A stretch of 36,664 bases of DNA from Candidatus Methanomethylicia archaeon (GTDB taxonomy: Archaea > Thermoproteota > Methanomethylicia > CALHIW01), in NCBI GenBank assembly GCA_938030905.1, contig CALHIW010000013.1, positions 1 through 36,664 on the forward strand. Direction: 5' to 3'. The translations under genes were made by a program, and so were the position numbers. Shown piece by piece: positions 6,165 through 27,720 of the stretch. The notes under the pieces are model-generated. The model worked only from the letters and a program-made list of their open reading frames with translations, had not been told where the DNA came from and ran no database searches. Every line of letters starts with the position of its first letter. The first letter of the stretch is position 1.

Positions 6165-7200
6165 AAGATGTTGTTTCCCCCTATGTTAAGATTGCGAGGA
6201 AAGATCATTTGGACCTTAAGAAGGAGGCGGAAAGAAGCTATGTGATGAATTGCTAAAAGATCAGGAGTTTTCAAAGCACTACGTTGATTTCACGGTCAAT
6301 TCGGTCATAGGACCCGTTAAAGGATTGATATCGCTCTACAATCAGGGGAGGGTGAAGAGAAAACCTGAGATAATAAAAGGAATAGTCTTTTCAGCCTTAG
6401 AAATAACATTTTGAGAATTAGCATCAAGCCAAATAAAAGGTTTCTCGATTTAACGAAGTATTTCCTGGCTTCCAAAAGATTTCGATAGAGTCGGTGGCTG
6501 CTTTTGACTGAAAAGAAGCTTATAATCCCGTTCAAGAAAAGCGTAGAGCAAAAGCGGAGAAATTCGCCTCATTCAACGTAAACTTAACAAATATAACTGC
6601 TTTCATAGATGGGGGAATAGAATGCTACGATCTAAGGGGCTTTACCACATTCACAGAACTTACAAGATAAAGTGAAGAAGGATTCAGAAACTCACAAAGT
6701 TCAAGCCGAAGACTTTGAAAAAGCTTTTGGAGAAGTATTCGAAGCGTGAAAGAAATAGAGCAAAGGACTTCATGTACAAGCTCACAACTTTGATAGCAAA
6801 GACTTAAAGAGCTTAAAAGCGGAGCAATTCTTAGGGCATCAAGAGAATCAGAGAAAGAGTTTTCACGACTCTAAAAAATGAACAGAAAGCTTTCAACATG
6901 GAACGCGAGGACTTTTCAATTCATGCTTGAATACAGGCTGGATTGGTTGGAACTACTTGTGAAACACGTTGATTCAAAAACAGCTCCAAGACGCCCTCTC
7001 TGCTCTGGAAGCTTAGCCTCCTATGAGGGTATGTTGATGAGATGTGAGAGATGTAATTTAGCGGTGGATAGAGATGTTGTAGCTGTTTTGAACCTTCAGA
7101 TGTGGGGGTTTGGATTCACCCCGAAGGCCTCAATGAGCTAATCGAGAGGGATGGGTTAGGTAGGAATGAAAGTAATGGAAAGCTATATATTCCTATTTAA
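6165..7200 (+). pseudogene. Degenerate TnpB (IS200/IS605-type OrfB) with multiple frameshifts
   Basis: Recoverable TnpB-like segments in changing frames: DELLKDQEFSKHYVDFTVNSVIGPVKGLISLYNQGRVKRKPEIIKGIVFS, NLTNITAFIDGGIECYDLRGF, STWNARTFQFMLEYRLDWL, zinc-ribbon remnant LCSGSLASYEGMLMRCERCNLAVDRDVVAVLNLQM, tail LNELIERDGLGRNESNGKLYIPI*. Confidence 0.85.
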
Positions 7201-22364: not shown

Positions 22365-22979
22365 ATGTCTCAAACTAGGTTAAAGGAGAAACTTCTAAAA
22401 TTACTTAGTGAAGATGTAGAGTTTAGATATGCTGTACTTGGCTTACTAGGTATTCAGGAAGTATTAAGTGCAATCAAATCACTCCAAGAACAAGTAGCTA
22501 ACAATACAAGTGCAATCAAATCACTCCAAGAACAAGTAGCTATGCATACTGAGATACTTGAAGTTCATGCTAGAAGTGTTGAGAAAATATCTTCTAAGAT
22601 AGATGCTCTCGGAGTTAGGTGGGGGATCATTACTGAGGAGACATTTAGAGAATCAATAAAGTACCTAGTTGAAGATTTACTAAAGATATATAAGACTGAT
22701 AAATGGATTCATTATGATAGGGACGGATTTGTATATGGTTATCCTAGTACAGTAGAGGCAGATCTCCTAATTAAGAATAAGGAGCACATAATCGTAGAGT
22801 TTAAATCTCATGCTGACAGATCAGATATTAGCGAACTATTTAAAATAGGACAGCTATATGGAAAAATAACTGGAGTAAAACCAAAAATGCTTATGATAGC
22901 CTCAGCAATTAGGAGAAAAGCAAAGGAATTAGCAGATAAGATAGAAATAGAATGTAGGGGAACAGTACTAGAATACTAG
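22365..22979 (+). CDS. DUF3782-like coiled-coil protein with PD-(D/E)XK nuclease-like C-terminus
   Basis: Coiled-coil heptads (AIKSLQEQVA)x2, C-terminal VEADLLIKNKEHIIVEFKSHAD matching a D...ExK pattern. Confidence 0.7.
   Translation: MSQTRLKEKLLKLLSEDVEFRYAVLGLLGIQEVLSAIKSLQEQVANNTSAIKSLQEQVAMHTEILEVHARSVEKISSKIDALGVRWGIITEETFRESIKYLVEDLLKIYKTDKWIHYDRDGFVYGYPSTVEADLLIKNKEHIIVEFKSHADRSDISELFKIGQLYGKITGVKPKMLMIASAIRRKAKELADKIEIECRGTVLEY
22466..22542. repeat. Two exact 35-bp direct copies (period 42 bp) inside the DUF3782-like gene
   Basis: AAGTGCAATCAAATCACTCCAAGAACAAGTAGCTA at 22466-22500 and 22508-22542. Confidence 0.95.
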
Positions 22980-23281
22980 TTATCACTCTTATAAAGTCCT
23001 CATAACCATTAGATATTAGTATCTAAACTTGTATTAGATAGTATATAAGCCTTTTCTATACGGCTTTCCATATGACTTATATGTAGATGTAGAAATGTTA
23101 AGGGATCCCGGGAAGTTGTGGGTTTAAGATAAATACTTAGCTTTCTATTATCTAAGAGTATGAATAAGGCAGCTGTAGATAGATAACTCTAGAGGCTAGG
23201 GGAAATGATAAGTTATGATGATTCAAATAGGGAGGTAAAAATTTATGCAATAGATATTTAAGAATTGCTATTTATCAAAAG

Positions 23282-23340
23282 GATACTGTCAAGTTAGTAC
23301 ATGTAAGCATGTACGGTTAATGGCTTAACTTGACAATATC
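23282..23340. repeat. 59-bp nested inverted-repeat mini-element (MITE-like)
   Basis: Outer arms GATACTGTCAAGTTA / TAACTTGACAATATC (14/15), inner GTACATG-TAAG-CATGTAC, and GTTAA-TGGC-TTAAC; outer arms resemble IS ends at 24770 and 25446. Confidence 0.8.
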
Positions 23341-23366
23341 TACTAAAAGTGAGGAGTATCCTAACT

Positions 23367-24719
23367 CTAATAAGATTGCTTGGTCTTCATGGCTTCATTA
23401 ATCATTCTAATTTCAGCCTTTACAACTTCATCCCATGATCCATAAGTTTCTAAGAGCTTGAGAGTTAACATATCTTCGTGCAGCTCAGCTAATCTATCTA
23501 AATCCATTTTTAAGGATATTAATAATTTTATAAGCCATAGCATTAATATCATACTCCGAAACGGTTAGAACAGCTTTAATACCACTATAAGTAGACTTTA
23601 TTGCTGGAATATCATATGCAACTACAGTTGTTCCAAGAGCTAAACTTTCCAAAACAATTAGAGGAAAAGCATCTTTATGTGATGGATAAATAAGAGTTCT
23701 TGCCTTAGATATGATTTTAATATGATTATTTCTATCTACATATCCTAAATACTCCACATTTTTACTAAGATTAAACCTTCTCAGCAATCTTTCAAACTCC
23801 CCCCTTACCCTTTGCTTAGTGAAAGCGCCAGTTATAATTAGCTTTGCATCTGGAAGCTTTGATATTACTTTACGCCAAATATAGGGTATTTCTAAAACTC
23901 CTTTTTCACATGTAAGCCTAGCTGAAAATACAGCATAGTTGTCTTTAGTATAACTCCTATACTTAATTAATTCATTATCGTAAGCATTAGATGGATGTAA
24001 AAACCCTACTACACTTACAATATTTCCTTAGCCCTGAAACTATAAATGGAGCTTCGGAAACTGAAGCTATGAACCCCAATCTAGGGCTTCTAATAATATC
24101 ATTATATACTTTCTTTATGTACATATTAGTATATGAGGCTAAGAGATGCTTTATGCTTAATCTAAGTATATTCCACTTCTCCATGGAAAGAAAGTGAAAC
24201 ATAACCTTTAAATTTTCATAGTAAGGTTCAAGCTGAAGCAAAATACCAAAGGGTTTTTTGGAGCTTGTTAGCAATATAGCTTGCCATAATTACAGCATCC
24301 ATAGCTTCATGGAGGGAGTATATGAAGTCCACCTTAAATGTTTTTATATCCTCCAGGTACTTGTTTGAGGTTTCATACTCAATCTTCCTAATCCTTAATA
24401 GTTTATGAGCTGTCACTCTCCTTTTAAGATCAATCTCTACCTCATCTAATACTTCTTCCAATATATTCCATACATTACTAGGAATAATAACTCCCTTTAT
24501 GGATAGGTAGTTAAATATCTTGTTGAATTCATTTAGAATGTCTTCCCTATTAGCTAAGCCAATACGTATTTTAGCTAGTACATCACTATATAATTCATTA
24601 TATGGTATAAATAGTACTGGCTCAACATTATAATTAATGTAACGTGTAATAACATTAAAAGCTCTTCTTGCACCGCCGCCAAGCTCTAAGAAGGGGTTTG
24701 CAACTACTATAAGCCTCAT
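23367..24719 (-). pseudogene. Family 4-like (GT-B) glycosyltransferase disrupted by about three single-base frameshifts
   Basis: ORF pieces 24228-24719, 23987-24274, 23494-23787 and 23367-23552 read as one GT-B protein (ANPFLELGGGARRAFN... ; VVGFLHPSNAYDNELIKY...NYAVFSARLTCEKGVLEIPYIWRKVISKLPDAKLIITG ; IYPSHKDAFPLIVLESLALGTTVVAYDIPAI). Confidence 0.85.
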
Positions 24720-24769: not shown

Positions 24770-25446
24770 GATACTGATAAGATAAGCTCACCATCCTAAA
24801 GGTGGAGTCTGAGGCTTTGATGGATTCTTAAGTAGTTATACTCATATGTTAGGATTTGATCTGTGGCTTCAAAATCTACAATTCCTCTTGATGTGGCATT
24901 TAAATTGTTATGGAGGCTTTTAGATGCTCTTCACTGCTCTGAAGTAGTGCTTTATAGTATTTAAGCTAGGCGATTTCAAAGCTCATGGATACATGAACCA
25001 CCTCCACAGAATCCAGGCTTATTCCCTACATGCCCTCAGGACCATCTTATGAACTTATAGGTGTAAAGGCTAGACTGATACTTGGGCATAAATGGCTATT
25101 ATTTCCCGATTCTACATCAATCACCCCCAAGATAGAGCCATCTACCCCCTGAAGCTTTGCCTCCACCCTATCAATTACTACATGACCCCCTGTTTGGAGG
25201 CCATGATGAGCTAGAGATTCAAACCTATGAATCATAGCCCTACAGCCCCCGCTTACCCTAACAAGCCAACAATGCCCAGCCATCCCCATGCCTAAACAGC
25301 TAAATAAGGATTACCCCAGCCTCAATAAAACATCACTACGTATGAAGAGCCATTTATCCTTACAGCCTCCAAAGCTTAAGGCATCCATAAATACTAACCC
25401 AAAGAAAGCCTGAAGGAGTTTCTAAAAACCTTATCTTGTCAGTATC
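24770..25446 (-). mobile_element. Degenerate IS with terminal inverted repeats and DDE/integrase-type transposase remnant
   Basis: TIRs GATACTGATAAGATAAG (24770-24786) and CTTATCTTGTCAGTATC (25430-25446), 16/17 match; minus-strand fragments VVIDRVEAKLQGVDGSILGVIDVESG and YEYNYLRIHQSLRLHL. Confidence 0.7.
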
Positions 25447-27029: not shown

Positions 27030-27720
27030 TTTAGATGATGATGTTAAGATAAGGCTTTGGGTTCAAGGAATGTTTTCTTTGGAGAGTTTGTTTAGATGTT
27101 TAAGTGGTTTCTCGAAGCTGTTAGAAAGCTAAGATATTTAAGCATAATGAGGATTCGCTTACTCATAAGGTTAGCTGTATTAATGGCTGTTTAAGTTACG
27201 GGTTATGACCATTATGTTGGCTCAGATCCTTAGGTCAAGGCTCTGCTATTATTGGTTCAAAGTTAGGAAGCTCCAGTCTATGTAAGCTAGGTAAGAGGGA
27301 TATTGCAGTTAATGAAGCAAACTGAGGGTGGAAAGCTGTGACTATTTGTTGCTACAGTGTGAATTCCAAAGAATAGCCGTACATGCTAACTAATAGTGTT
27401 CAGCAATGAATACTGTATATGTTCTTAAAGAGGATTAGGCTCTACCTTATAAGTCATTAATTCTAGTTGATAAGGCTCATGGTATTTGAATGTTCCTTAA
27501 GAGCTTTAGGATCAAATAGACACATATTACTGCGGATTAAGAAACGGGATTGAAAAGCTATTCAGAGCTCTGAAGGATAGGATGAAGGTTTCACAATAAC
27601 TTTCCATCTAAGAGGGAGAAGGAAAGATTAGGAAAATTTTGATGACTGATGTTTGCTATTTCCTCAAAAGCTAAGGATTTACCTTTAGTACTATTGGAGG
27701 CTATGGCTTTAGATAAGGCG
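27030..27720 (+). mobile_element. Degenerate DDE transposase remnant (second, different IS)
   Basis: Frame-shifting segments: IAVNETKL, SLILVDKAHWYLNVLKELRIKYTHI, LRNGIEKLFRALKDRMKVFHNNFPSKREKE, resembling archaeal IS transposase C-termini. Confidence 0.65.

Follow-up and report, generated by a model that had tools for sequence, protein, structure and literature searches.

The analysis of a 36,664-nucleotide stretch of archaeal DNA (hereafter, the window) identified a 59-bp nested inverted repeat that is almost certainly a MITE, consisting of two 15-bp archaeal IS6-family ends around a gene-less 29-bp core and copied in trans to at least 20 sites. A minimal MITE was one of the options put forward for this unit in the first-pass annotation, alongside nearly back-to-back TIRs, a recombination product and a transposase-bound site, and it is the option supported by about 20 dispersed copies, a common core, duplications of 8 or 9 bp and the presence in the same genome of longer insertion sequences (ISs) with the same ends. 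The element is of a known kind, an IS6-type MITE, that is unusually small and new in its size. The importance of the finding lies in unusually short mini-transposons, bearing clear scars, within a family known from its studied members for cointegrate formation.

Organization and distribution of the 59-bp family

The unit lies at the position in which the first-pass annotation had placed it, and the pairing of its outer arms was confirmed at 14 of 15 positions (Table 1). Both inner hairpins ascribed to it, GTACATG-TAAG-CATGTAC and the alternative GTTAA-TGGC-TTAAC, were likewise found, the former as a perfect stem of 7 bp and the latter as a stem of 5 bp. The perfect inner hairpin is a trait of the window copy, and not of the family. 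The symmetry that had been described as extending beyond the unit proved to be coincidental: the AG preceding GATACT comes from the target duplication, and AGTATCCT (23355-23362) falls beyond the element.

Table 1. Features of the 59-bp element and of IS6-like remnants in the window.
Feature	Position	Strand	Remarks
59-bp micro-MITE, window copy (contig C13)	23282..23340	+	One of 20 genome copies; 89% identity to family consensus
Left terminal inverted repeat, GATACTGTCAAGTTA	23282..23296	+	Identical to IS6-family element ends in other genomes
Right terminal inverted repeat, TAACTTGACAATATC (GATATTGTCAAGTTA on minus strand)	23326..23340	-	Pairs 14/15 with left arm
29-bp family-specific core, with GTACATG/CATGTAC hairpin in the window copy	23297..23325	+	Core common to all copies; no compensatory pair changes
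Target site duplication, left copy, TATCAAAAG	23273..23281	+	7/9 against right copy; both mismatches are transitions
Target site duplication, right copy, TACTAAAAG	23341..23349	+	Partner of left copy TATCAAAAG
Decayed full-length IS6-like element, 677 bp, ends GATACTGATAAGATA / GATACTGACAAGATA	24770..25446	-	Flanks ATGTTAGA/ATATTAGA (7/8)
Further IS6-like remnant, in a more advanced state of decay; right boundary not delimited	27035..27700	+	DNA matches and tblastn

The genome that contains the window is a bin of 987 kb, in 110 contigs and 62% complete. A search of this genome with the window unit returned 19 other places (E-values of 1e-15 to 1e-6), 78-88% identical to the query; these matches are far beyond chance and outline a family of at least 20 dispersed copies on 19 contigs. 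The first-pass annotation had named a single occurrence without related IS ends as the outcome that would speak against its reading; the genome instead holds about 20 copies, along with IS copies that have matching ends. Fifteen of the 20 copies measure 59 bp (one of them after boundary correction) and the others 54, 58, 58, 58 and 61 bp. Multiple dispersed copies in one genome and a short length (54-61 bp) without a transposase gene are both as expected of a MITE.

The alignment of the copies, with consensus GATACTGTCAAGTTAGTATATGTGGACATGTATAGTTAATGGCTTAACTTGACAGTATC, revealed that all of them have the 15-bp inverted ends and the 29-bp core in common. Mean pairwise identity among copies is 0.85, and identity to the consensus reaches 96% and 93% in the two ends and 87% in the core, with 68 transitions versus 15 transversions among the substitutions. 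Nineteen of the 20 copies lie outside ORFs of at least 80 aa, with one overlapping such an ORF. In addition, weaker matches to the unit were detected on two contigs (C83 and C22), and may represent further decayed copies.

Target site duplications

The left and right flanks of all 20 copies were compared with each other against shuffled pairing. Flank identity reached 0.51 over 8 bp (z 5.6) and 0.53 over 9 bp (z 6.7), versus 0.31 for shuffled pairs in both cases, and none of 20,000 shuffles was as high at either length; the other flank lengths between 4 and 13 bp yielded nothing beyond a weak z of 2.0 at 5 bp. Perfect 8-bp duplications were identified in three copies (C16, AGAAGTAG; C34, ACTTCAAG; C103, ATTCTAAG), and the flanks of four further copies match at 8 of 9 positions. 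At a threshold of 6/8 or 7/9, a duplication was present in 12 of the 20 copies and in none of the remaining eight.

The search for target duplications that the first-pass annotation had recommended hence returned duplications of 8 or 9 bp across the family, and these differ in sequence from copy to copy. A duplication of 8 bp is expected of IS6; it is 8 bp in some copies and 9 bp in others. The same two lengths were observed for the longer elements with matching ends described below, with 8 bp in three of them (C31, L083 and L099) and 9 bp in another (C34), so that the mini-elements and their partner ISs agree in duplication length.

Partner insertion sequences and assignment to the IS6 family

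Inverted pairs of matching ends delimit decayed elements of 548-703 bp in the genome of the window. These include an element of 680 bp on contig C31 and one of 703 bp on contig C34, both with ends as in the 59-bp unit and with duplications CTCTGAAT and AAGAAGCAG, respectively, as well as a shortened IS copy of 548 bp (C51). Within the window, the element at 24770-25446 contains a weak transposase remnant (tblastn E 0.001). The remnant at 27035-27700 presents DNA matches to an element of the same genome (C66) at 27042-27125 and 27562-27588, and an IS6 transposase match at 27328-27639 (tblastn E 0.006); it is also related to another element of this genome (C99).

The first-pass annotation had linked the left arm of the 59-bp unit to the IS end at 25432-25446, and the 13/15 match to the reverse complement of this end, GATACTGACAAGATA, was verified. 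The type of link was correctly recognised, although the GATACTGTCAAGTTA subgroup (C31 and C34) is a likelier partner than the adjoining GATACTGACAAGATA copy. The 29-bp core of the family could not be traced to internal sequence of the full-length ISs.

No IS copy of this genome was observed to retain an intact transposase reading frame, and the assembly (62% complete) returned no match to PF13610. Profile searches of the decayed transposase pieces against Pfam and NCBIfam also returned no match, and relatives from other genomes were therefore used. Among 398 genomes of the phylum, 12 besides that of the window contain relatives of the longest remnant, that of the C31 element, and the better-preserved of these relatives belong to the IS6 family according to both Pfam (PF13610) and NCBIfam (NF033587). 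In particular, an element in a Bathyarchaeota genome bin (L137) encodes an intact transposase of 226 aa, with 152 bits to the NF033587 IS6 model (cut-off 125) and 56% identity to the C31 remnant over 81 aa. This element is 731 bp long; one of its ends is GATACTGTCAAGTTA, and the other differs from it by a single mismatch.

The consensus end of the 59-bp family matches the ends of ISs at 15 of 15 positions, one of these ISs having an intact transposase, and it is through this element that the partner transposase is assigned to NF033587/PF13610. In further genomes, IS6-type elements occur whose ends are either exact or deviate by two mismatches each. Among these elements, L083 is flanked by an 8-bp duplication, TCAAGTTC, and L099 is a shortened copy of 313 bp with duplication GTAGGTGG; shortened IS copies of 358 and 313 bp were identified in one genome (G084).

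Most probably, a transposase acting in trans recognises GATACTGTCAAGTTA and joins the element to staggered target cuts, giving rise to a target duplication of 8 or 9 bp. The IS6 subgroup with GATACTGTCAAGTTA-type ends would be the source of the enzyme, and the 59-bp family would have grown from one founder and drifted since.

Mini-elements of 69-71 bp in the Bathyarchaeia

A pattern scan of a species-genome collection detected four 70-bp elements with exact ends, all in the Bathyarchaeota bin QZM_A2_bin_23 (G398, by its contig coordinates the same genome as G513, which belongs to the genus of G084). DNA searches of G398 and G084, each with many IS6 transposase matches, delimited 12 mini-elements of 69-71 bp, with ends as in the 59-bp unit and cores of two types. 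Ten of the 12 present a perfect duplication of 8 or 9 bp, the other two matching at 8/9 and 6/8. Two elements of G084 (L123 and L125) have similar flanks and may occupy paralogous sites; because of this likeness, the 12 mini-elements amount to at most 11 independent events. Three 70-bp copies are identical to one another over all 70 bp, and the 69-71-bp elements are younger than the 59-bp family.

One 70-bp element (L120) interrupts a reading frame: once the 70 bp and one 9-bp duplication are removed, a 112-aa ORF becomes part of a continuous frame of 233 aa. The two pieces of this frame returned no Pfam match. The interrupted frame is the best evidence for the mobility of such mini-elements, and it concerns a 70-bp relative rather than the 59-bp family itself.

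Searches for the 59-bp family in 60 relatives, across 398 genomes of the phylum and in collections of genome contigs and viral contigs gave no hit save for one locus (L053; G007:C10, approximately 42984-43009), which belongs to a genome from the same class. This locus spans about 60 bp and has a similar core, GTATAGTTAATG, making it a possible divergent homologue of the 59-bp element. Two IMG/VR contigs that resemble one same phage contain a 75-bp inverted repeat with CTGTCAAGTTA arms (L163:1977-2051 and L164:1121-1195); this palindrome lacks a target duplication and was judged to be unrelated to IS6.

Comparison with known systems

The IS6 MITEs of ISfinder, MITEBth2 and MITEHarch3, likewise combine IS6 ends with the lack of a transposase gene (PMC7986276, PMC6807381). 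A review of the IS6 family, which gives its duplications as 8 bp, counts two such MITEs, of 227 and 336 bp (PMC7986276), and the 59-bp element is set apart from them by its size. Archaeal IS6 elements, for which there were no experimental data as of 2019 and whose separation from the family has been proposed (PMC6807381), resemble the elements studied here in their PF13610/NF033587 transposase (about 226 aa in the intact relative), their length of 731-745 bp and the 8-bp duplication of some copies, but in the elements studied here 9-bp duplications are about as common as 8-bp ones. Furthermore, the ends described here begin with GA, whereas bacterial IS6 ends begin with GG; many archaeal IS6 ends also lack GG (PMC6807381).

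As in other archaeal MITEs (PMC3852290, Table 4), only the terminal repeats are common to the mini-element and its partner IS. The smallest MITE in that table is an IS630-type element of 89 bp, compared with 59 bp here, and none is IS6-derived. The QMITE1 family of Coxiella also includes some very short copies, with a range of 39-400 bp (PMC10969869), but its full length is about 400 bp and its short copies have low identity to it, whereas in the present family the amplified unit is itself 59 bp long. The internal eliminated sequences of Paramecium are similarly very short pieces of DNA, below the persistence length, that are handled by a DDE-type transposase (PMC3464196); they are eukaryotic and undergo programmed excision by a piggyBac-derived enzyme, and the likeness concerns the physics only. 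REP sequences and other short dispersed palindromes share with the 59-bp family a small size and a dispersed, mostly extragenic location. REPs, which are associated with HUH transposases, generate no target duplication; the 59-bp family, in contrast, presents clear duplications and the ends of a DDE-type IS.

Mode of transposition

Movement through replicative cointegrates, resolved later by host homologous recombination between the 59-bp copies, has a little under an even chance of being the route taken by these elements. According to the authors of the IS6 review, every member investigated so far seems to transpose by forming replicative cointegrates (PMC8722142), and in several cases their resolution relied on recombination by the host (PMC7986276, PMC8722142). 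Several longer relatives (L137, L141 and L084) lack target duplications, as unresolved replicative events would give. Recombination between repeats of 59-70 bp should, however, be inefficient, and matching duplications were observed in 24 of 32 mini-elements versus 6 of 12 longer elements, a difference that also counts against this route but is not significant (Fisher p 0.15).

More tentatively, and with odds below even, it can be proposed that an archaeal IS6-like transposase is able to move each 59-71-bp element as a unit of its own, in excised linear, hairpin or circular form, producing simple insertions with duplications of 8 or 9 bp. If true, such discrete movement would set these elements apart from the IS6 elements studied so far, which are described as forming cointegrates, and the ends of the 59-bp element, 29 bp apart, would need to be brought into synapsis on DNA far below the persistence length. 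Helical-phase limits on length could perhaps apply as well: 59 and 70-71 bp differ by approximately one helical turn, in a comparison of two or three families.

The clean insertions of 59-71 bp are mechanistically interesting because the review counts only two, larger, IS6 MITEs and the studied IS6 elements form cointegrates; they are not proof of another pathway. With their defined ends, elements of 59-70 bp provide a handy substrate with which to test archaeal IS6-like enzymes for simple insertion, and they also suit the question of the minimum distance at which transposon ends can be synapsed.

Alternative origins of the palindrome

A structured RNA, terminator or other host regulatory palindrome, spread by selection and not by transposition, is a very improbable explanation for the 59-bp family. 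The strong predicted hairpin (RNA folding z of -5.0 on the plus strand and -7.1 on the minus strand versus shuffles) and the location of 19 of 20 copies outside ORFs of at least 80 aa would fit such a role, but no compensatory change was detected at any pair of the nested hairpin in 14 full-length copies, and the paired-cell fraction does not exceed that of shuffles. In the RNAalifold consensus, which pairs the bases differently, a single pair shows a double change. Given the lack of covariation, of Rfam matches and of terminator-like sites in the 59-bp element, this explanation was rejected, and it would also leave the fixed-length target duplications at the element edges unexplained. The palindromic hairpin is not itself the selected function, and results from the inverted ends being so close together. 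The independent generation of IS6 fragments at each site by internal deletion or recombination, leaving back-to-back ends and no mobile unit, is scarcely credible: the shortened IS copies of other sizes described above would fit such losses, but independent deletions would not yield a common core and near-equal length, and the common core together with the differing target duplications refutes it.

Other features of the window

Several minus-strand ORF pieces occupy window positions 23494-24719. The piece closest to the MITE matches glycosyltransferase group 1; the remaining pieces resemble the rest of one broken gene, and those scanned returned no family match. At positions 6878-7141, an 87-aa ORF matches the Cas12f1-like/TnpB domain PF07282 and is probably an IS605-type TnpB remnant. 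Two tandem 42-bp copies with 93% identity at positions 22466-22549, corresponding to a 14-aa repeat, lie within an ORF (22365-22979) with DUF3782 and PD-(D/E)XK nuclease domains.
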